Positions 37,413-48,766 of a DNA stretch of 64,000 bases are shown piece by piece; positions within the stretch are counted from its first letter, which is position 1; each line of letters starts with the position of its first letter. The stretch spans positions 4,650,001 through 4,714,000 of the forward strand of contig NZ_CP154796.1 in the NCBI RefSeq assembly GCF_039566955.1. Reading direction: 5' to 3'. Position numbers and translations under genes: made by a program. This DNA is from Micromonospora sp. DSM 45708 (GTDB lineage Bacteria > Actinomycetota > Actinomycetes > Mycobacteriales > Micromonosporaceae). The notes under the pieces were generated by a model. That model worked only from the letters and a program-made list of their open reading frames with translations. It searched no databases and was not told where the DNA came from.

Positions 37413-38243
37413 ATGGCCGCACCCAGCCACGGCGCGGTGGTGGTCGGCGTCGGCCGGTCGGCGGAGGCCCTGACGGTGGTCCGCACGGCCGCCGTCGAGG
37501 CCGCCGCCCACGATCGGCCGCTGCACCTGCTGCACGCCTTCAACTGGGCCGCCACCGGCGGCCCCGCCCCGGCCGGCGGCACCCGCATCGACGCCGAACG
37601 GCTGCTGGAACGGGCCGGCCAGCTCGCCGCCGACGCCGCGCCGGAGGTGCCGGTCAGCGACGAGATCGTCGAGGGCTCACCGGTCGAGGCGCTGCTGCGG
37701 GCCGCCGGCACCGCGTTCCTGGTGGCGCTCGGTGACGGCGGCATCTCCACCTGCCCGGCCTGCGTACCGGCCGACGGGCCCGCCGTCGAGCTGGCCGCCC
37801 GCGCCGGCTGTCCCGTCCTGGTCGGCCGGTCCGAGCCGGCCCCGCCCGGGCCGCTGCTCGTCGGCTACGACGGCTCGCCGGGCGCCCACCACACGCTCGG
37901 GTACGCCTTCGACTGCGCCGAACGCCGGGGCGCCCGGCTGCTCGCCGTCCGGGTGGTCGAACCGGAGCGCCGCGACGCCGACGACGGCCTGCTGGAAGCG
38001 GCGGTCAACGCGCACGCCGTCCGGCATCCCCGGGTGACCGCCGACTGCCGGACCGTGCGCGGCGAGCCCGCGGACGTCCTGCTCGACCGCTCCCGGTCGG
38101 CGCAGCTCGCGGTGGTCGGCGCACGCGGCGACGGGCCGGTGCGGTCCAGCCTGGGCGAGGTCAGCCAGGCTCTGCTCTACCACTCGCCGACCCCGCTGAT
38201 CGTCGTCCGGGGGCTCGACCCGGGCGCCCGGGAGGGGGCATGA
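37413..38243 (+). CDS. Universal stress protein, tandem USP domains
   Basis: A 276-residue protein with two USP domains. The second has GYDGSPGAHHTLGYAF and the ATP-loop variant GARGDGPVRSSLGEVSQALL. The first is degenerate: it lacks a full G-2X-G-9X-G(S/T) loop. Tandem USPs are the dominant products of dormancy regulons in mycobacteria. ATG 37413 follows GGGAGGTGA. It is first of a block with phosphoketolase and a second USP. Confidence 0.9.
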   Translation: MAAPSHGAVVVGVGRSAEALTVVRTAAVEAAAHDRPLHLLHAFNWAATGGPAPAGGTRIDAERLLERAGQLAADAAPEVPVSDEIVEGSPVEALLRAAGTAFLVALGDGGISTCPACVPADGPAVELAARAGCPVLVGRSEPAPPGPLLVGYDGSPGAHHTLGYAFDCAERRGARLLAVRVVEPERRDADDGLLEAAVNAHAVRHPRVTADCRTVRGEPADVLLDRSRSAQLAVVGARGDGPVRSSLGEVSQALLYHSPTPLIVVRGLDPGAREGA

Positions 38244-38257
38244 CGCCCACCGGACCC

Positions 38258-38272
38258 GGGACCTCCGGCCCT
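38258..38272. promoter_or_regulatory. DosR-like box 1 upstream of phosphoketolase
   Basis: GGGACCTCCGGCCCT matches the mycobacterial DosR 14-mer GGGACTWWAGTCCC at 10 positions. It is identical to the sequence at 47708-47722. It lies 100 bases before the phosphoketolase ATG. Confidence 0.5.
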
Positions 38273-38371
38273 GACCGGCACCCCCGTCCGGGCGCGAGAG
38301 TGGACGCGCCGGGGACGGACGTCTCCTCCCCGGGTGGCAGCCGACCCCGAGCCACGAGAGGCTAACGCAGC

Positions 38372-40774
38372 ATGGACACCGCGCTGGACCTGCACAGCCC
38401 CCTGACCGACGACGAGCTGCGCCGGCTGGACGCCTACTGGCGGGCCGCGAACTACCTGACCGTCGGGCAGATCTACCTGCTCGACAACCCGCTGCTCCGC
38501 GAGCCGCTCCGGCCCGAGCACGTCAAGCCCCGCCTGCTGGGCCACTGGGGCACCAGCCCCGGCCTCAACCTGCTCTACGCGCACCTCAACCGCGTCATCG
38601 TCGACCGGGACCTGTCCGCCATCTTCGTCACCGGCCCCGGTCACGGCGGCCCGGCGCTGGTCGCCAACACCTGGCTGGAGGGCACCTACAGCGAGCTGTA
38701 CCACCACATCCCGCGCGACGAGGTCGGCATGCAGCGGCTGTTCCGCCAGTTCTCGTTCCCCGGCGGCATCCCCAGCCACGTGGCGCCGGAGGTGCCGGGT
38801 TCGATCCACGAGGGCGGCGAGCTGGGGTACGCGCTGAGCCACGCGTACGGTGCCGCGTTCGACAATCCGGACCTGCTGGTCGCCTGCGTGATCGGTGACG
38901 GCGAGGCGGAGACCGGCCCGCTGGCCGGGAGCTGGCTGTCCAACGTGTTCCTCAACCCGGCTCGCGACGGCGCGGTGCTGCCGATCCTGCACCTCAACGG
39001 CTACAAGATCGCCAACCCGACCGTGCTGGACCGGATCCCCGCCGAGGACCTGCGGGACCTGATGCGTGGCTACGGCTACCAGCCGTACCTGGTCGAGGGC
39101 GACGACCCGGCGACCGTGCACCAGGTGCTCGCCGCGACGCTCGACCGGGCGGTCGACGAGATCGCCGAGATCCAGCGCCGGGCCCGCTCCGGCGGGGAGG
39201 TCGAGCGCCCCCGCTGGCCGATGATCGTGCTGCGGACACCGAAGGGCTGGACCGGTCCGGCGGAGGTGGACGGCAAGCAGGTCGAGGGCACGTTCCGCGC
39301 CCACCAGGTGCCGGTCGCGGAGGTGCGCGACAACCCGGCGCACCTGGCCGAGCTGGAGCGCTGGCTGCGCAGCTACCGGCCGGAGGAGCTGTTCGACGCC
39401 ACCGGCGGCCCGGTCGCCGAGCTGGCCACGCTGCCGCCCACCGGCGACCGGCGGATGAGCGCCAACCCGGTGGCCAACGGCGGCCGGCTGCTGCGCAACC
39501 TGGAGCTGCCGGACTTCCGCGACTACGGGGTCGACGTCGAGGAGCCCGGCGGCACGGTGGCCGGTGCGGCCGGCACGCTCGGCCCCTGGGTCCGCGACGT
39601 GATCGCCCGCAACCCGCAGACGTTCCGCCTGTTCGGCCCGGACGAGGTCGCCTCGAACCGGCTCGGCGCGGCGTTCGAGGTCACCGACCGGGCGTTCGTC
39701 GGCCGCCGGCAGCCCGGCGACGACCACCTCTCCCCCGACGGCCGGGTGATGGAGGTGCTCTCCGAGCACCTCTGCGAGGGCTGGCTGGAGGGCTACCTGC
39801 TGACCGGCCGGCACGGCATCTTCACCAGCTACGAGGCGTTCATCCACATCGTCGACTCGATGGTCAACCAGCACGCCAAGTGGCTCAAGGTGACCCGGCA
39901 CATCCCCTGGCGGGAGCCGATCGCCTCGTTGAACTACCTGCTCTCCAGCCACGTCTGGCGGCAGGACCACAACGGCTTCTCGCACCAGGACCCGGGCTTC
40001 ATCGACCACGTGGTCAACAAGAAGGCCGAGGTGGTCCGCGTCTACCTGCCGCCGGACGCCAACACGCTGCTCTCCACCATGGACCACTGCCTGCGCAGCC
40101 GGCACTACATCAACGTGGTGGTGGCCGGCAAGCAGCCGGCGCCGAACTGGCTGACCATGGACGAGGCGATCCAGCACTGCCGCCGCGGCCTGGGCATCTG
40201 GGACTGGGCCAGCACCGACGAGGGCACCGAGCCGGACGTGGTGCTCGCCTGCGCCGGCGACGTGCCGACGCTGGAGACGCTCGCGGCGGCCGACCTGCTG
40301 CGCCGGCACCTGCCCGACCTGAAGGTGCGGGTGGTCAACGTGGTCGACCTGATGCGCCTGCAACCGCCCTCGGAGCACCCGCACGGCCTGCCGGACAACG
40401 AGTTCGACACCATCTTCACCCGCGACAAGCCGGTCATCTTCGCCTACCACGGCTACCCGTGGCTGATCCACCGGCTCACCTACCGCCGGGCCAACCACGA
40501 GAACCTGCACGTGCGCGGCTACAAGGAGGAGGGCACCACCACCACGCCGTTCGACATGGTGATGCTCAACGACCTGGACCGCTTCCACCTGGTCATCGAC
40601 ACCATCGACCGGGTGCCGGGGCTGCGCTCGCGCGCCGCGCACCTGCGCCAGGAGATGGTGGACACCCGGCAGACCTGCCGCGACTACACCCGCGAACACG
40701 GCGAGGACGACCCCCGGGTCGCCGAGTGGCGCTGGATCCGCGAAACCGACCCGGCCGTGAAGGGTGACGCATGA
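38372..40774 (+). CDS. xfp: Phosphoketolase (xylulose-5-phosphate/fructose-6-phosphate)
   Basis: An 800-residue thiamine-diphosphate enzyme that splits xylulose-5-P or fructose-6-P with phosphate to acetyl phosphate plus a sugar phosphate. Landmarks are [47 protein letters not shown] and the ThDP motif [16 protein letters not shown] near residues 170-185, with [15 protein letters not shown] in the pyrimidine domain. Full length for the family. It sits between two stress-protein genes and its stop overlaps the next (ATGA), tying a redox-neutral acetyl-phosphate route to the stress block. Confidence 0.95.
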
Positions 40775-41634
40775 GCAACGACGAGATCCTGGTCGGCTAC
40801 GACGGCTCGACCGACGCGTCGGTGGCCCTGGACTGGGCGCTGGACGAGGCGGGCCGCTCGGGTCGGCCGGTGCGACTGGCGTACGTCTTCGAGTGGTTGA
40901 CCGTGGCCGGCTGGATCGGTCCCGGGGTGGCCCCGGGGATCTGGCCGGACGACAACGCCCGCCGGCAGGTCGAGGAACTGGTCCGCAAGGCGGCGGTGGA
41001 CGCCGCCGCCGAGCGGCCCGGCCTCACGGTGCACGGCGAGGTGTTCGACGGCCCGCCCGCGCTGGTGCTCCAGGAACGCTCCGCCGAGGCGGGCCTGCTG
41101 GTGCTCGGCAGCCGGGGGCACGGCGGCTTCGGCGGCCTGCTCGCCGGCTCCACGGCGGTCTCCGTCACCGCGCACGCCCACTGCCCGGTGGTGGTGGTCC
41201 GCGACGGCCAGGCGGCCACGTCCGGGCCGGTGGTGGTCGGCTCGGACGGCTCCCCCTCGGCGCTGCGGGCGCTCGGGTTCGCCGTGGAGCGGGCCGCCCA
41301 GCGGGACGTGCCGGTGCGGGTGCTGCGGGTCTGGGAGCCGCCGGGTGGCCGGTGGATGCCGCCGGACTTCGACCCGGAGGAGACCGCGGCGAGCGAGCGG
41401 GCCGCTGTCGAGGCGGAGCTGGCCCCGTGGCGGGAGACCTTCCCCGACGTGCCGGTGGAGATCGTGGCGGTCCCCGGCAGCGCCGCGTCGCTGCTGGTGG
41501 AGGCGAGCCGGCCGGCGCAGCTCGTGGTGGTCGGCAGCCGGGGCCGGGGCGGACTGCGCGGCATGCTGCTCGGCTCGGTCAGCCAGCAGCTCATCCAGCA
41601 CGCGCACTGCCCCGTCGCGGTGGTCCGGGAATGA
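40771..41634 (+). CDS. Universal stress protein, two intact USP domains
   Basis: A 287-residue tandem USP. Both halves keep the ATP-binding loop: [20 protein letters not shown] and [20 protein letters not shown], each after a GYDGST or GSDGSP start. It resembles dormancy-regulon USPs of M. tuberculosis. It is coupled to phosphoketolase by ATGA and is followed by repeat copy C. Confidence 0.93.
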
Positions 41635-41680
41635 AGGAGGGGTGCCCCCTTTTAACGCCTCCGGCAGAGGAGGGGGCCCG
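41634..41680 (+). repeat. Palindromic repeat copy C
   Basis: AAGGAGGGGTGCCCCCTTTT, then TTAACGCCTCCGGCAGAGGAGGG, shown here by position 41652-41674, then GGCCC. It is related to copies A, B and D but the stem has an extra TG. It separates the convergent USP and P-type ATPase genes and probably serves as a terminator. A second TTAACGCC at 41683 supplies the ATPase stop codon. Confidence 0.65.
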
Positions 41681-41682
41681 TG

Positions 41683-44022
41683 TTAACGCCCCGAGGCACC
41701 CTCGGCGGGGTTGAGGGAGAAGAAGTCCTCCTCCTCCTGGGCCAGGTGCAGCCGCAGCACCGCGTCCAGGCCGTAGAGCGCGGCCAGCAGGTCGGGCACC
41801 TCATCGGCGGGCAGCCGGCCGTCCAGCGCCGCCAGGTGCCCACCGACCCGCTCCACCAGCCGGACGATCTCCACGTGCGCCCGGCTCATCGTCGAGGTCG
41901 CCTCGTCGCTGCCGAGCGGGCCGGCCAGCGCCGGATAGAGCTGCCGTTCCTCGGCCGCGTCGTGCGGCAGCACCTCGTCGACCAGGCGCCGGTGCACGTC
42001 CCGCAACGCCGGTACGCACCCCGGGTCGTCCGGACGGGTCGCCACCAGGTCGGCGGTGTCCCGCAGCCGGGCCAGCACGTCCCGGACGCCGCCGTGCTCG
42101 CGCTCGTACCGGTCGAGCAGCTCCCGGGTGTGCGGGGGCACCTGCCGCTGCCGCAGGCCGCCACCCAGGGCCCGCAGCGCGTTGAGGATCACCACCACGT
42201 CGATGCCCTCCTGGAGGAACGCGCCGGCGACCGGGGGCAGCCGACCGGCGGCGGCCACCAGCATCGCCAGAACCGCCAGGCCCATCCCGACGGTGGCGCT
42301 CTGCACCGCGATGCGGCGGGCGTACCGGGCGATCTCGACGGCGTCGGCGAGCCGGTCCAGCCGGTCCACGGTGAGCACCGCGTCGGCCACGTCGGCGGAG
42401 GCGGTCGCCCCGGTAGCGCCCATCGCCACCCCGACGTGCGCCTCGGCCAGCGCCGGGGCGTCGTTGACGCCGTCGCCGACCATCACGGTCACCGCCCGCG
42501 CCGACTCCGCGCGTACCCGATCGGCCTTCTCCGCCGGCGCGCAACGCGCGATCACGTCGTCCACGCCGACCACCTGGGCGACCTGCCGGGCCGTACGCGG
42601 ACGGTCGCCGGTCACCATGACCAGCCGGGTCAGGCCCGCCTCGCGCAGCCGACGCACGGTGCGCCGGGCGTCCGGGCGGACCGGGTCCTCCAGCAGGATC
42701 GCGCCCAGCGGCCCGTGCTCGTCGCTGACCCAGACCGTGGACCGGCCGGACCGCTCGGCCCGCTCCCGGACCCGGTCCGCCCACGACGGCGGCTCACCGT
42801 CGAGCTGGCCGACCCGGATCGTCCGGCCGTCGACCCGGCCGGCCACGCCACGCCCCGGCTCCTCGGTCACGCCGGTCGGCTCGGCCAGCCGCACCCCCCG
42901 CTCGCGGGCCTGCCGAACCAGCGCGGCGGCCAGCACGTGCGGTGAGAGCTGCTCGACGGACGCGGCGAGCCGCAGCACCTCGTCCCGGTCGCCGCCCGGC
43001 GCGACCACGGTCTCCGCGGCCCGGGGCCGGCCGGCGGTGAGCGTGCCGGTCTTGTCCAGCAGCAGGGTACGGGCGCGGCCGAGCTGCTCCAGCGACCCGC
43101 CGTCACGCACCAGCACGCCCCGGCGGGCCACCCGGGACAGCCCGGAGACCACCGCGATCGGGGTGGCCAGCAGCAACGGACACGGGGTGGCCACCACCAG
43201 CACCGCCACCGCCCGCACGAACTCGCCCGAGAACAGCCACGCCAGCCCGGCCAGCAGCAGCGTGAACGGCACGAACGCGGCGGCGTACCGGTCGGCCAGC
43301 CGCACCATCGGAGCCTTGCGCGCGGTGGCCTCCCCGGCCAGCCTGACGATGCCGGCGTAGGTGCTCTCCGCCGCGTTGCGGTCGGCCCGCAGCCCGAAGC
43401 CGGCACCGGCGTTGACCACGCCGCTGGCCACCCGCTCGCCGACGGCGCGCCCGACCAGCCGGGACTCGCCGGTCACCACCGACTCGTCGAGCGTGGCCGC
43501 CTCCTCGACCGTGCCGTCCACCGGCACCACGTCACCGGGGCCGACCACCAGCCGGTCGCCGGCGACGACCCGGTCCAGCGGCACCACCTCGATCCCGCCG
43601 TCCGCGGTGCGCCGCCGTGCCTGCCGGGGCGCGCGCTCCAGCAGCGCCCGCAGGTCGCGGGTGGCCCGGCGCCGGGCGTACTCCTCCAACGCCCGCCCGG
43701 TGGCGACCATCACCGCGATCACGGCGCCGGCCAGGTACTCCCGCACCAGCAACGCGCCGAGCAGCGCCAGCACCGCGATGACGTCCACCCCGAACTGCCG
43801 ACGCCACAACTGGCGCAGCATCGTCCAGGCGGCCGGAGCCAGGGCCACCACGGTGACCGCGGCCCAGACCAGACCGGCCACGCCCCGCGCCCCCGCGAAC
43901 CACAACGCCGCGCCGGCCAGCACGGCCACCGTGAGCAGCGCCAGCGCGGCCCACTCGGCCGTCCCGGCCCGCCGGGCGCGGGCCGGCCGTTCGGGTACGC
44001 ATTCGCGCGGTTCCGTCCCCAC
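41683..44022 (-). CDS. P1B-type cation ATPase fused to a C-terminal hemerythrin HHE domain
   Basis: A 779-residue membrane protein. The ATPase (1-625) has actuator TGES at 184-187, metal-site TPCP at 279-282, phosphorylation Asp323 in DKTGTLT, and hinge GDGVNDAP at 516-523. The nucleotide domain has SPHVLA at 360-365 where P1B pumps usually have a His-Pro pair, so the order is reversed. Residues 630-770 form an HHE fold with H631, H643, H677, H687, H716 and H759 plus EEED, able to hold a diiron centre. No N-terminal metal domain is present. GTG 44022 is inferred. Confidence 0.9.
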   Translation of the reverse strand: MGTEPRECVPERPARARRAGTAEWAALALLTVAVLAGAALWFAGARGVAGLVWAAVTVVALAPAAWTMLRQLWRRQFGVDVIAVLALLGALLVREYLAGAVIAVMVATGRALEEYARRRATRDLRALLERAPRQARRRTADGGIEVVPLDRVVAGDRLVVGPGDVVPVDGTVEEAATLDESVVTGESRLVGRAVGERVASGVVNAGAGFGLRADRNAAESTYAGIVRLAGEATARKAPMVRLADRYAAAFVPFTLLLAGLAWLFSGEFVRAVAVLVVATPCPLLLATPIAVVSGLSRVARRGVLVRDGGSLEQLGRARTLLLDKTGTLTAGRPRAAETVVAPGGDRDEVLRLAASVEQLSPHVLAAALVRQARERGVRLAEPTGVTEEPGRGVAGRVDGRTIRVGQLDGEPPSWADRVRERAERSGRSTVWVSDEHGPLGAILLEDPVRPDARRTVRRLREAGLTRLVMVTGDRPRTARQVAQVVGVDDVIARCAPAEKADRVRAESARAVTVMVGDGVNDAPALAEAHVGVAMGATGATASADVADAVLTVDRLDRLADAVEIARYARRIAVQSATVGMGLAVLAMLVAAAGRLPPVAGAFLQEGIDVVVILNALRALGGGLRQRQVPPHTRELLDRYEREHGGVRDVLARLRDTADLVATRPDDPGCVPALRDVHRRLVDEVLPHDAAEERQLYPALAGPLGSDEATSTMSRAHVEIVRLVERVGGHLAALDGRLPADEVPDLLAALYGLDAVLRLHLAQEEEDFFSLNPAEGASGR

Positions 44023-44079
44023 GTGCGGATCGTCTCAGTGCCGAAGCGGGGCAGGTAGGGCGAACGCGGGTAATCCGGA

Positions 44080-44093
44080 GGGCCGAAGGCCCC
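44080..44093. promoter_or_regulatory. DosR-like box 2 in the ATPase/nitroreductase divergent spacer
   Basis: On the minus strand GGGGCCTTCGGCCC, the same pattern as boxes near phosphoketolase and the second nitroreductase. It lies in the 170-base spacer shared by the HHE-ATPase and the first nitroreductase and could control both. Confidence 0.5.
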
Positions 44094-44192
44094 GTGCGGC
44101 CGGGTGCGGGCATGCCCGAGGATGGAGCGGCAACCCCACCCGGGCGTCCCGGGCGTGGGGCACGATGGGGAGAGACAGGAAAGGTCGTGACG

Positions 44193-45203
44193 ATGAGCCA
44201 CGAGACGCCGGCTACCGATCGCCCGCTGACCACCGCGCTCGCGGAGGCCGCCGGAACGGCCGGCCACGCCCCGTCGGTGCACAACACCCAGCCCTGGCAC
44301 TGGACGGTGCTGCCCGACGCGCTGGAGCTGCGGGTGGTCCGGGAACGGCACCTCAGCGCCATGGACCCGGAGGGCCGGCTGCTGGTGGTGAGCTGCGGCG
44401 CCGCGCTGCACCACGCCCGGGTGGCGCTGGCCGCCGAGGGCTGGACCCCGGTGGTGGAACGCCTGCCCGACCCGCACCAGCCCGACCTGATGGCCCGGAT
44501 CACCGGGCTGCGCCACACCGGCGCCGACCCGGACGCCATGCGCCTGGTGCAGTGCATGCGGGTGCGGCACACCGACCGGCGGCCGGTCAGCGACGAGCAG
44601 ATCCCCACCGCCGTGCTCGGCGACATCGACCGGGCCGCCACCCGGGAGGGCGTCAACCTGCAACTCCTCGACGACATGCAGAAGATCGAGCTGGCCGGCG
44701 CCGCCCAGCACGCCGCCGCCGTCGAGGCGGACAGCCCGGAACTGCGCGAGGAGCTGGCGTACTGGACCAACCGGGCCGGCACCGGCACCGGCCTGCCGCC
44801 GGAGGTGCTGCCCGACCAGGCGGCGCAGACCACCGTGCCGGGCCGCGACTTCGGCGCCCCCGGCTCGCTGCCGATCGGCCCCGGCCACGACAAGGCCGCC
44901 GTCTACGCCATCCTCTGGGGCGCCGAGGACGAGCCGCTGAGCTGGCTGCGCGCCGGTGAGGCGCTCTCCGCCGCCTGGCTCGAAGCCACCCGGCACGGGG
45001 TGTCCCTGGTGCCGCTCTCCGGCGTGGTCGAGGTCGACGGCACCCGCGAGGTGCTCCGGCAGACACTGGCCGGCCTGGGCCACCCCTACCTGAGCATGCG
45101 GCTCGGCGTGGCCGACCCGGAGCACGCCGGCCCGCCGCACACCCCGCGGCTGGACGCCGCACAGACCGTCGACACGTCGGCGGTCCGCGACCAGCCGTCC
45201 TGA
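44193..45203 (+). CDS. Acg-family (nitroreductase-like) protein
   Basis: A 336-residue protein of the Acg group, FMN nitroreductase homologues that in M. tuberculosis (Rv2032 and relatives) are strongly DosR-induced. Landmarks are APSVHNTQPWHWTV at the start, CGAALHHARVALAAEGW, RRPVSDEQIP, and a second half with a degenerate nitroreductase fold ending YLSMRLGVADPE. Acg proteins are thought to bind FMN without clear catalysis. ATG 44193 is preceded by AGGAAAGG. It is divergent from the HHE-ATPase and precedes the DevS-like kinase. Confidence 0.88.
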   Translation: MSHETPATDRPLTTALAEAAGTAGHAPSVHNTQPWHWTVLPDALELRVVRERHLSAMDPEGRLLVVSCGAALHHARVALAAEGWTPVVERLPDPHQPDLMARITGLRHTGADPDAMRLVQCMRVRHTDRRPVSDEQIPTAVLGDIDRAATREGVNLQLLDDMQKIELAGAAQHAAAVEADSPELREELAYWTNRAGTGTGLPPEVLPDQAAQTTVPGRDFGAPGSLPIGPGHDKAAVYAILWGAEDEPLSWLRAGEALSAAWLEATRHGVSLVPLSGVVEVDGTREVLRQTLAGLGHPYLSMRLGVADPEHAGPPHTPRLDAAQTVDTSAVRDQPS

Positions 45204-45215
45204 CGGGCTCGTCGG

Positions 45216-46964
<1,749 letters not shown>

Positions 46965-46976
46965 CCCGGTCGGCGG

Positions 46977-47615
46977 TCAGTGGGTCTTGCCGAGCAGCCG
47001 GGTGGCCAGCACCGCCGCCTGGGTGCGCCGCTCCAGGCCCAGCTTCGCCAGCACGCTGGAGACGTAGTTCTTCACCGTCTTCTCCGCCAGGAACATCTTG
47101 CCGGCGATCTCACGGTTGGTGAGCCCCTCGGCGACGTACTCCAGGATCCGCCGCTCCTGCTCGGTGAGCGACTTCAGCTCCCGCGGCTGCTCCACCCCGC
47201 TGCGGATGCGCTCCAGCACCCGGGTGGTGATCGCCGGGTCGAGCAGCGACTGCCCGGCCGCGACCCGGCGGACCGCGTCCACCAGGTCGGTGCCGCGGAT
47301 CTGCTTCAGCACGTAGCCGGCCGCACCTGCCATGATCGCCGCGAAGAGCGCCTCGTCGTCCTCGTACGAGGTGAGGATCAACCCCTTGATCGACGAGTCC
47401 ACGGCGCGGACGTCCCGGCACACGTCGATGCCGTTGCCGTCGGGCAGCCGGGCGTCGAGGATCGCCACGTCGGGGCGGAGCGCGGGAATCCGCCGCGTTG
47501 CCTCCTGGGCCAGGCCGGACTCGCCGACCACCTCGATGTCGCCGCTGCTGGTCAGCAGGTCGGCCAGGCCACGACGGACGACCTCGTGGTCGTCGAGCAG
47601 AAACACCCGGATCAT
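46977..47615 (-). CDS. DevR/DosR-like response regulator (NarL family)
   Basis: A 212-residue regulator closely matching remembered M. tuberculosis DevR: MIRVFLLDDHEVVRRGLADL, phospho-Asp54 in ILDARLPDGNG, LILTSYEDDEA, and effector LTNREIAGKMFLAEKTVKNY with the KNYVSSVLAKLGLERR continuation. The helix-turn-helix carries the DevR-type Lys and Asn used for base contact. It converges on its putative kinase (12-base gap) instead of being in one operon with it. ATG 47615 is preceded by AAAGGACGG. It should bind the nearby boxes. Confidence 0.93.
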   Translation of the reverse strand: MIRVFLLDDHEVVRRGLADLLTSSGDIEVVGESGLAQEATRRIPALRPDVAILDARLPDGNGIDVCRDVRAVDSSIKGLILTSYEDDEALFAAIMAGAAGYVLKQIRGTDLVDAVRRVAAGQSLLDPAITTRVLERIRSGVEQPRELKSLTEQERRILEYVAEGLTNREIAGKMFLAEKTVKNYVSSVLAKLGLERRTQAAVLATRLLGKTH

Positions 47616-47651
47616 CCGTCCTTTCTACCCGCTGCCCCCCACCCCCCGCAC

Positions 47652-47722
47652 GGGTCGAAGGTCCCGTCGTTGCCGCGCCGCCCCGGGCCGGTCGGACCCG
47701 CCCAGGTGGGACCTCCGGCCCT
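47652..47722. promoter_or_regulatory. DosR-like boxes 3 and 4, DevR/nitroreductase divergent spacer
   Basis: GGGACCTTCGACCC (minus strand, 47652-47665) and GGGACCTCCGGCCCT (47708-47722) lie in the spacer between the DevR-like gene and the second Acg gene. A weaker GGGCCGGTCGGACCC is at 47685-47699 between them. Multiple boxes near devR itself fit autoregulation. Confidence 0.55.
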
Positions 47723-47791
47723 GCTCAGGGCGCATCCCGGTGACGCACCGTAGAAACCGGAAGCCCGACGCCGTACGGAGGGAGCACGACC

Positions 47792-48766
47792 ATGACGACC
47801 GGATACACCGTCGGGCAACTGCGGGCCGCGGTCGCCGACGCGGTACGCGCGCCGTCGCTGCACAACACCCAGCCGTGGCGGTTCCGACTGCACGACGGCG
47901 GCATCGAGGTCGCCCTCGACCCGCTGCGCGGGCTGCCGGCCACCGACCCGACCGGCTGGGGCGCGCGGATCGCGTGCGGGGCGGCGCTGTTCAACCTGCG
48001 GCTCGCGCTGGCCGTGGCGGGCACCCCGGCGACGGTCCGGCTGCGCCCGTACCCGGCCGAACCGGACGTGGTGGCCCGACTGCTGCCCCAGACGCCGCGC
48101 CCACCCACCCCGACCGAGCAGAGCCTGTACGGGGCGGTCGGCCGCCGGTTCAGCAACCGGGCGCCGTTCTGGCCGGACCCGGTGCCGGCCGACGCCCGCT
48201 GGCGGCTCGGCGAGGCGGCCCGCGCCGAACAGTGCTGGCTGGAACTGGTCATCGGCACCAGCGCGGTCAACGCGTTCGCCGAGGTCGCCCGCAGCGCCCA
48301 CCGGGTGCTGGAACGCGAGCCGGCGTACGTGGCCGAACGGGTGGCGTGGATGCGCTCCGAGCCGGCCCCGGACGGCGTGCCCACCGGCGCCGGGGGCCCG
48401 CAGAGCGAACCGCAGGACCTGCTGCCGCAGCGTGGCTTCGGCGGGCGCAACCGCGCACCCGGCCGGGACTTCGAACCCGAGCCGCTGGTCGCCGTGCTCG
48501 GCACCCCCGGCAACACCGGCACCGACCAGGTCGCCGCCGGGCAGGCCCTGCAACGGGTGCTGCTCACCGCCACCGACGCCGGGCTCGCCGTGTCGATGCT
48601 CTCCCAGCCGATCGAGGTGCCGGCGGCGCGGGAGGCGCTGCGGCTGTCCCTGGGCCGGTTCGGCACGCCGCAGATGGTGATGCGGATCGGGTACGGCCAA
48701 CCGGGCCGCGCCACCCCGCGCCGCCCGGTCGACGAGGTGCTCGACCTGCCGGTCACGCGGCCCTGA
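47792..48766 (+). CDS. Acg-family (nitroreductase-like) protein, second copy
   Basis: A 324-residue relative of the protein at 44193-45203. It has ADAVRAPSLHNTQPWRFRL, CGAALFNLRLALAVAG, RRFSNRAPFWPDPVP and QMVMRIGYG. It probably binds FMN. ATG 47792 follows GGAGGGAG. It is divergent from the DevR-like gene with boxes 3 and 4 between, so it is the best candidate direct target. Together with the first copy it flanks the two-component genes. Confidence 0.88.
   Translation: MTTGYTVGQLRAAVADAVRAPSLHNTQPWRFRLHDGGIEVALDPLRGLPATDPTGWGARIACGAALFNLRLALAVAGTPATVRLRPYPAEPDVVARLLPQTPRPPTPTEQSLYGAVGRRFSNRAPFWPDPVPADARWRLGEAARAEQCWLELVIGTSAVNAFAEVARSAHRVLEREPAYVAERVAWMRSEPAPDGVPTGAGGPQSEPQDLLPQRGFGGRNRAPGRDFEPEPLVAVLGTPGNTGTDQVAAGQALQRVLLTATDAGLAVSMLSQPIEVPAAREALRLSLGRFGTPQMVMRIGYGQPGRATPRRPVDEVLDLPVTRP

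Follow-up and report, generated by a model that had tools for sequence, protein, structure and literature searches.

A probable DevR/OsdR-type regulon island in a Micromonospora genome

The best parallels to the locus described here are the OsdR/OsdK system of Streptomyces coelicolor (SCO0167-SCO0219, PMC5069765) and the DosR/DevR regulon of Mycobacterium tuberculosis. In S. coelicolor, a DevR-type regulator and a DosT-like kinase are, as in the Micromonospora locus, linked in an island with USP, nitroreductase-family, and hemerythrin genes, and many of the predicted OsdR sites surround osdR itself. Urem et al. 2016 (PMC5069765) reported binding of OsdR to targets of M. tuberculosis DevR, and Table 1 of that paper lists among the predicted sites AGGGACCTTCGGCCCC, upstream of a USP and narG2, and CGGGACCTTCGGCCCT, both with the core found in Micromonospora; this core, GGGACCTTCGGCCC, is predicted in S. 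coelicolor at SCO0167c, SCO0216, and SCO5979. The M. tuberculosis regulon likewise contains a regulator, a haem GAF kinase, USPs, and Acg (Rv3131-type) proteins.

We analysed a 64-kb stretch of DNA (the window) from a Micromonospora genome that is a single contig of 7,016,307 bases (C1 in the genome coordinates below). An earlier note on this DNA had proposed an island at 37413-48766, and all eight of its genes lie at the positions given there. The phosphoketolase, the cation pump fused to a hemerythrin domain, and the two Acg nitroreductases, both above the NCBIfam cut-off for the Rv3131 type, were as described, but the two USPs called tandem have the phosphoketolase between them. The frame GGG.C....G.CCC (a match to which is called a frame box or frame site below) occurs at six places in the window: the four boxes listed here, 22393, and 38547.

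37413..38243, + strand: USP1, two Usp stretches; no frame box upstream
38258..38271, + strand: DevR-type box GGGACCTCCGGCCC, centred 107.5 bp ahead of the phosphoketolase start
38372..40774, + strand: phosphoketolase (XFP)
40771..41634, + strand: USP2, two Usp stretches; first 4 bp shared with the XFP end
41683..44022, - strand: P1B-type heavy-metal ATPase, TPCP motif at residue 279, hemerythrin domain at the C-terminus
44080..44093, - strand: DevR-type box GGGGCCTTCGGCCC, in the gap that separates the divergently oriented ATPase and Acg1 genes
44193..45203, + strand: Acg1, Rv3131-type FMN nitroreductase-like protein (NF047509, 274.5 bits, cut-off 199)
45246..46964, + strand: DosS/DosT-like GAF-GAF-HisKA_3 sensor kinase (His148, Tyr170, Gly86; HisKA_3 His391)
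46977..47615, - strand: DevR/OsdR-type NarL-family response regulator (Asp54)
47652..47665, - strand: DevR-type box GGGACCTTCGACCC, centred 43.5 bp ahead of the regulator start codon
47708..47721, + strand: DevR-type box GGGACCTCCGGCCC, centre 77.5 bp before Acg2
47792..48766, + strand: Acg2, Rv3131-type (NF047509, 312 bits, cut-off 199)

All four 14-bp boxes lie in promoter gaps, those at 47652 and 47708 being 56 bp apart from centre to centre. The earlier note had their positions right, but as palindromes they are imperfect (four of seven mirror pairs match), and among the genes of the island the regulator, Acg, and phosphoketolase genes have a box, USP1 has none of its own, and USP2 lies behind the phosphoketolase, with which it probably forms a single transcription unit. 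Acg1 and the kinase are probably co-transcribed as well, because the kinase starts 43 bp past the end of Acg1 on the same strand. The regulator gene converges with the kinase gene and diverges from Acg2; the two partners are not an operon, whereas osdR-osdK is one in S. coelicolor (PMC5069765).

The regulator combines a NarL-type receiver with a LuxR HTH and is identical to M. tuberculosis DevR (3c3w) at 120 of 207 residues (58%), which agrees with its previous description as DevR-like. It shares with DevR Asp54, Lys104, Lys179, Lys182, Asn183, Thr198, and Thr205, among which we take Lys179, Lys182, and Asn183 to be the DNA-contact residues. The role of Asp54 in DevR has been described (PMC3029386). 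The nearest named relatives of the regulator are from Micromonospora, with 95-98% identity in the closest loci.

The kinase has the composition of the DosS/DosT haem kinases, that is, GAF domains with a proximal His and a distal Tyr, HisKA_3, and HATPase. Its first GAF domain matched DosT and DevS best (89 of 144 residues identical to DosT), and His148, which had been proposed as the haem position, is in place and is separated from Tyr170 by the same 22 residues as the haem His149 from the distal Tyr171, the roles of which are described in PMC4082495. Gly86 of the kinase corresponds to Glu87 in DosS and to Gly85 in DosT, and at the seven residues that distinguish DosS from DosT (list from PMC4082495, alignment read by eye) the kinase is DosT-like at four, DosS-like at none, and neither at three. 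Overall, the kinase looks DosT-like. These residues also bear on the idea that the island responds to the redox or quinone state and not to O2 or NO, which we regard as unlikely. DosS has indeed been argued to be a redox sensor, but Glu87, argued to favour autooxidation, is replaced by Gly86 in the island kinase, and the distinguishing residues point to DosT; the same paper also cites work opposing the Glu87 argument (PMC4082495).

The pump contains the TPCP, HxxxE, and HxE stretches, and its last ligand stretch is HLAQEE (HxxxE) rather than HxxxxD. TPC in the transport helix is a feature of P1B-5 ATPases. The hemerythrin ligand pattern of this class is H-HxxxE-HxE-HxxxxD, and the P1B-5 ATPases of Acidothermus and Sinorhizobium likewise join a P1B pump to a C-terminal hemerythrin domain with HxxxE and HxE (PMC9388753); the island pump differs from them in having HLAQEE for HxxxxD and in being encoded in a DevR island. 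It is P1B-5-like, a kind of protein that is already known from that work. In four relatives (G003, G007, G013, and G015) the match to the ATPase stops near residue 621-638, so the hemerythrin part seems to be absent or diverged there and the fusion varies within the genus.

All four boxes fit the relaxed mycobacterial consensus RRGNCYWNNGNMM; at position 6 of the stringent consensus GGGACTTNNGNCCCT they carry C where it has T (PMC6448022). The centre of the consensus reads CTYC in the island and GATC in S. coelicolor (PMC5069765). A box variant special to the island, which the earlier note thought might be new, was rejected, since the core is present in the published OsdR sites AGGGACCTTCGGCCCC and CGGGACCTTCGGCCCT (PMC5069765) and the relaxed consensus also fits. 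The compact linked regulon was likewise suggested to be new; as a linked OsdR island and the same core have both been published, the kind is known and the Micromonospora case is a member in another family. Overall, boxes that fit the published consensus lie upstream of the regulator and nitroreductase genes, as in an OsdR/DosR regulon. The gene content follows that of M. tuberculosis for the regulator, kinase, USPs, and Acg proteins but not for a boxed HSP20: hspX/HSP20 is under a box in M. tuberculosis, whereas neither of the two HSP20 loci in the Micromonospora genome has a frame box. HSP20 is absent from the S. coelicolor table too (PMC5069765) and is thus not defining for the wider kind.

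The pattern GGGRCCTYCGRCCC had seven exact matches in the 7,016,307 bases, four of them in the island. Because this pattern had been derived from the four boxes, we repeated the genome test with the published S. coelicolor site core GGGACCTTCGGCCC (at most one mismatch) and obtained 12 sites genome-wide, four of which fall inside a 9,464-bp stretch of the island. The chance of this clustering is 1.6e-9 for one pre-named stretch and, by our own estimate, about 1e-6 once the choice of stretch is allowed for. With two mismatches, the window held 12 matches against a shuffle mean of 22.45, from which it follows that only near-exact boxes are unusual. With two mismatches, GGGACCTTCGGCCC matched the genome 134 times against 209 for its reversed control. 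A relaxed box pattern matched it 17 times against 33. The genome-wide scan that had been proposed as a check thus found the exact matches concentrated in the island but the looser ones below their controls: what marks the motif in this genome is clustering, not frequency.

The relatives were surveyed through 80 named loci, the best of 574 that have a regulator homologue; 21 of the 80 (L038-L058) were taken as Micromonosporaceae by record title, leaving 59 others. In 29 of the 80, the 300 bp ahead of the regulator contain a frame site (at 40-60 bp in 15), and the 51 regulators without one were distributed as 4 of the 21 Micromonosporaceae and 47 of the 59 elsewhere. In 14 of the 21 Micromonosporaceae loci, a frame box stands 49-50 bp ahead of the regulator start. 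Near-exact boxes were counted in the 250 bp ahead of each gene, the starts being extrapolated from tblastn. Within Micromonosporaceae they precede the regulator in 14/21 cases, the phosphoketolase in 6/10, Acg2 in 7/15, Acg1 in 4/14, and the ATPase in 2/6, with 0/7 for USP1, 1/15 for the kinase, and 1/17 for USP2; in the other 59 loci the counts were 10/62 for the regulator and 12/39 for USP2. The reversed control gave 0 throughout upstream of genes (0/21 for the regulator), and tiles across all 80 loci, which include these promoters, gave 102/5,886 for the box and 8/5,886 for the reversed control. In the genus, GGGACCTTYGGCCC had 102 sites in 62 of 81 genomes compared with 27 sites in 21 for its reversed control. 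When the window was aligned with 12 of the 80 loci, chosen largely for having the box, the columns GGGAC-TT-G-CCC were invariant in the 13 sequences, and a GTAGAAA-like stretch was partly kept about 24 nt beyond the box, right before the start codon.

NarL-type regulators are numerous in actinomycetes, and the boxes might belong to another member of this family in the same cell, with the island regulator a bystander. In S. coelicolor, SCO3818 is, besides OsdR, a cognate regulator of OsdK (PMC5069765). We nevertheless find this improbable: the conserved box 49-50 bp ahead of the regulator's own gene is what self-control predicts, and the recognition residues that were compared are the same in the island regulator and DevR.

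The promoter geometry was derived from 266 frame sites with full flanks over the 80 loci, from which 39 directionless sites were dropped; these sites are partly orthologues, hence not all independent. ANNNT, the main -10 motif in Mycobacterium smegmatis (PMC6448022), was used as the -10-like element. Among the 101 sites with at most two mismatches to GGGACCTTCGGCCC, read in the GGGACCTT direction, the onset of ANNNT falls 23 nt past the box at 36 sites and 24 nt past it at 11, compared with 5 and 0 in the opposite direction, that is, 47/101 on one side versus 5/101 on the other, with about 4 expected (background 0.019 per position). The weaker sites with three to four mismatches (n=114) gave 24 versus 9, and the 12 worst sites none. 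Removal of similar downstream stretches left 105 of 116 near sites and the peak persisted (34 and 12), with 6 and 0 of 109 on the other side. There are also secondary peaks at offset 44-45, which we read as the neighbouring box itself; divergent pairs of boxes, like that at 47652-47721, thus seem to be a recurrent arrangement with a gap of about 42-43 bp.

In the island, the hexamers exactly 24 nt from the box are GAGAGT (phosphoketolase), GAGGAT (Acg1), TAGAAA (regulator, without the final T of ANNNT), and CACCGT (Acg2). The box at 44080 contradicts the polarity rule: its -10-like GAGGAT lies on the Acg1 side, and there is no ANNNT at 14-32 nt toward the ATPase. If transcription starts about 7 nt past the hexamer, the box centre would be near -44, beside or in place of the -35 element, in agreement with the description of M. 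tuberculosis DevR, the proximal site of which overlaps -35 much as proposed for the Micromonospora boxes (PMC3029386). The fixed place before the regulator, the fixed one-sided -10 spacing, and the box counts in relatives, which greatly exceed the reversed control, together make it highly improbable that GC-rich promoters gave rise to the box similarity by chance, even though the matches with two mismatches are fewer than in shuffles of the window or reversed controls of the genome.

Outside the island, one locus retrieved from the same genome by the relaxed box pattern (L122) contains a cydA (cytochrome bd) gene, upstream of which, at C1:2990614-2990651 (L122 1477-1514), two DevR-frame boxes stand in tandem with TAGTAT at 24 nt. 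The best cydA locus per genome was then taken from 30 genomes of the genus including this one (L177-L206), of which 29 were parsed. In 27/29 genomes the 320 bp ahead of the first conserved peptide contain a frame box, and TAGTAT is exactly 24 nt past the box in 20/29; the interior of the proximal box varies while its frame holds, and the distal box GGGTCATTGGTCCC is found in 21/29. Common descent explains part of this conservation. The TAGTAT adjoins or sits within a palindrome-like stretch GTAGTA...TACTAC, so a second regulator probably acts at cydA.

A probable second regulon place lies around the exact box at C1:4063855, where a divergent Crp-like/USP pair and an acetyltransferase gene are found near C1:4063855-4064839 (L173, C1:4061500-4068500). 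Two GGGACCTTCGGCCC sites (at most one mismatch) lie there within 1 kb of each other, neither with ANNNT at 20-27 nt, and the pair resembles SCO0168/SCO0167c, which has predicted boxes in S. coelicolor (PMC5069765). The exact box at C1:1101135 has GACGAT at 24 nt and is ahead of a 170-aa ORF that matches no Pfam family. The one at C1:3633624, which starts 3 nt past a molybdopterin oxidoreductase ORF and lacks ANNNT at 20-27 nt, was set aside as probably due to chance. At C1:5985987, a USP match is accompanied by GGGCCGGCCGCCCC and, at 23 nt, CACGCT, whereas the USP/Acg loci at C1:5918404, 5920130, 2949014, 3699489, 5050900, and 144899 have no frame box, nor does the locus of the single acetate kinase gene of this genome. 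For narG, the genome gave three weak matches, none above the cut-off, one of them at a locus with a frame site and CATGTT at 24 nt. At C1:3680236-3680782 (L035/L174), a broken Acg-like gene with the near-box GGGTCCTCCGGCCC directly upstream has the look of a decayed regulon member. Another near-box, GGGTCCTTCGGCCC at C1:5236602 (L172 2103), has ANNNT at 24 nt and lies near ECF sigma factor and MauE-type genes.

Taken together, protein identity, sensor residues, conserved boxes, and gene set make the assignment to a DevR/DosR-type regulon island well supported, and we consider it very likely that the island is the core of a DevR/OsdR-type hypoxia/NO regulon with the boxes as putative activator sites at -35. 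Box conservation and promoter geometry are read directly from sequence; for binding, activation, and the signal we infer the following course from the described relatives. The kinase would bind haem through His148 and read O2, NO, or CO, and as O2 falls it would phosphorylate the regulator at Asp54. The phosphorylated regulator would then bind the boxes at about the -35 position, with a weak ANNNT-like -10 following after 24 nt, and activate phosphoketolase-USP2, Acg1-kinase, Acg2, the regulator itself, and perhaps the P1B-5-like pump. Against this assignment we counted the 51 of 80 regulator loci without a box, the off-rule box at 44080, and the ATPase orthologues, only 2/6 of which are boxed. 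We further counted the incomplete ANNNT (TAGAAA) at the regulator, the matches with two mismatches that fall below their reversed control in this genome, the unboxed HSP20 loci, the absence of a narG match above the cut-off, and the two boxes at the second regulon place that lack ANNNT at 20-27 nt.

A broader reading, which we hold to be rather doubtful, is that the DevR/OsdR box of actinomycetes is a polarised promoter element, the asymmetric core of which determines the direction of transcription and places the -10 at 23-24 nt, and that in Micromonospora the regulon includes cydA through paired boxes and is joined to an acetyl-phosphate loop. Its polarity and cydA parts come from the sequence comparisons given above. 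The loop is speculation: acetyl phosphate made by the phosphoketolase might phosphorylate the OsdR/DevR-type regulator and so sustain its own production. Acetyl phosphate has been reported to phosphorylate OsdR (PMC5069765) and DevR (PMC3029386) in vitro.

The phosphoketolase and the P1B-5-like pump are additions to the DosR/OsdR gene lists that we compared: the word phosphoketolase is absent from the main text of PMC5069765, and the pump of the Micromonospora island sets it apart, as a P1B-type protein, from the M. tuberculosis regulon. Among the matches listed in the open-licence literature (title and start of abstract), none tied phosphoketolase to DosR or DevR, nothing on point joined Micromonospora with DevR and hypoxia, and none on a DosR, OsdR, or dormancy regulon named Micromonosporaceae. 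What this analysis adds is the box polarity, the presence of the phosphoketolase and the P1B-5-like hemerythrin pump in the island, and the same-frame boxes at cydA. The rule of a box followed on one side, after 23-24 nt, by ANNNT could sharpen regulon prediction. The dormancy-type switch, the box core of which is known from published Streptomyces sites, appears as a common arrangement among the sampled Micromonosporaceae loci, and it would tie phosphoketolase, and perhaps cytochrome bd, to the sensing of O2/NO.
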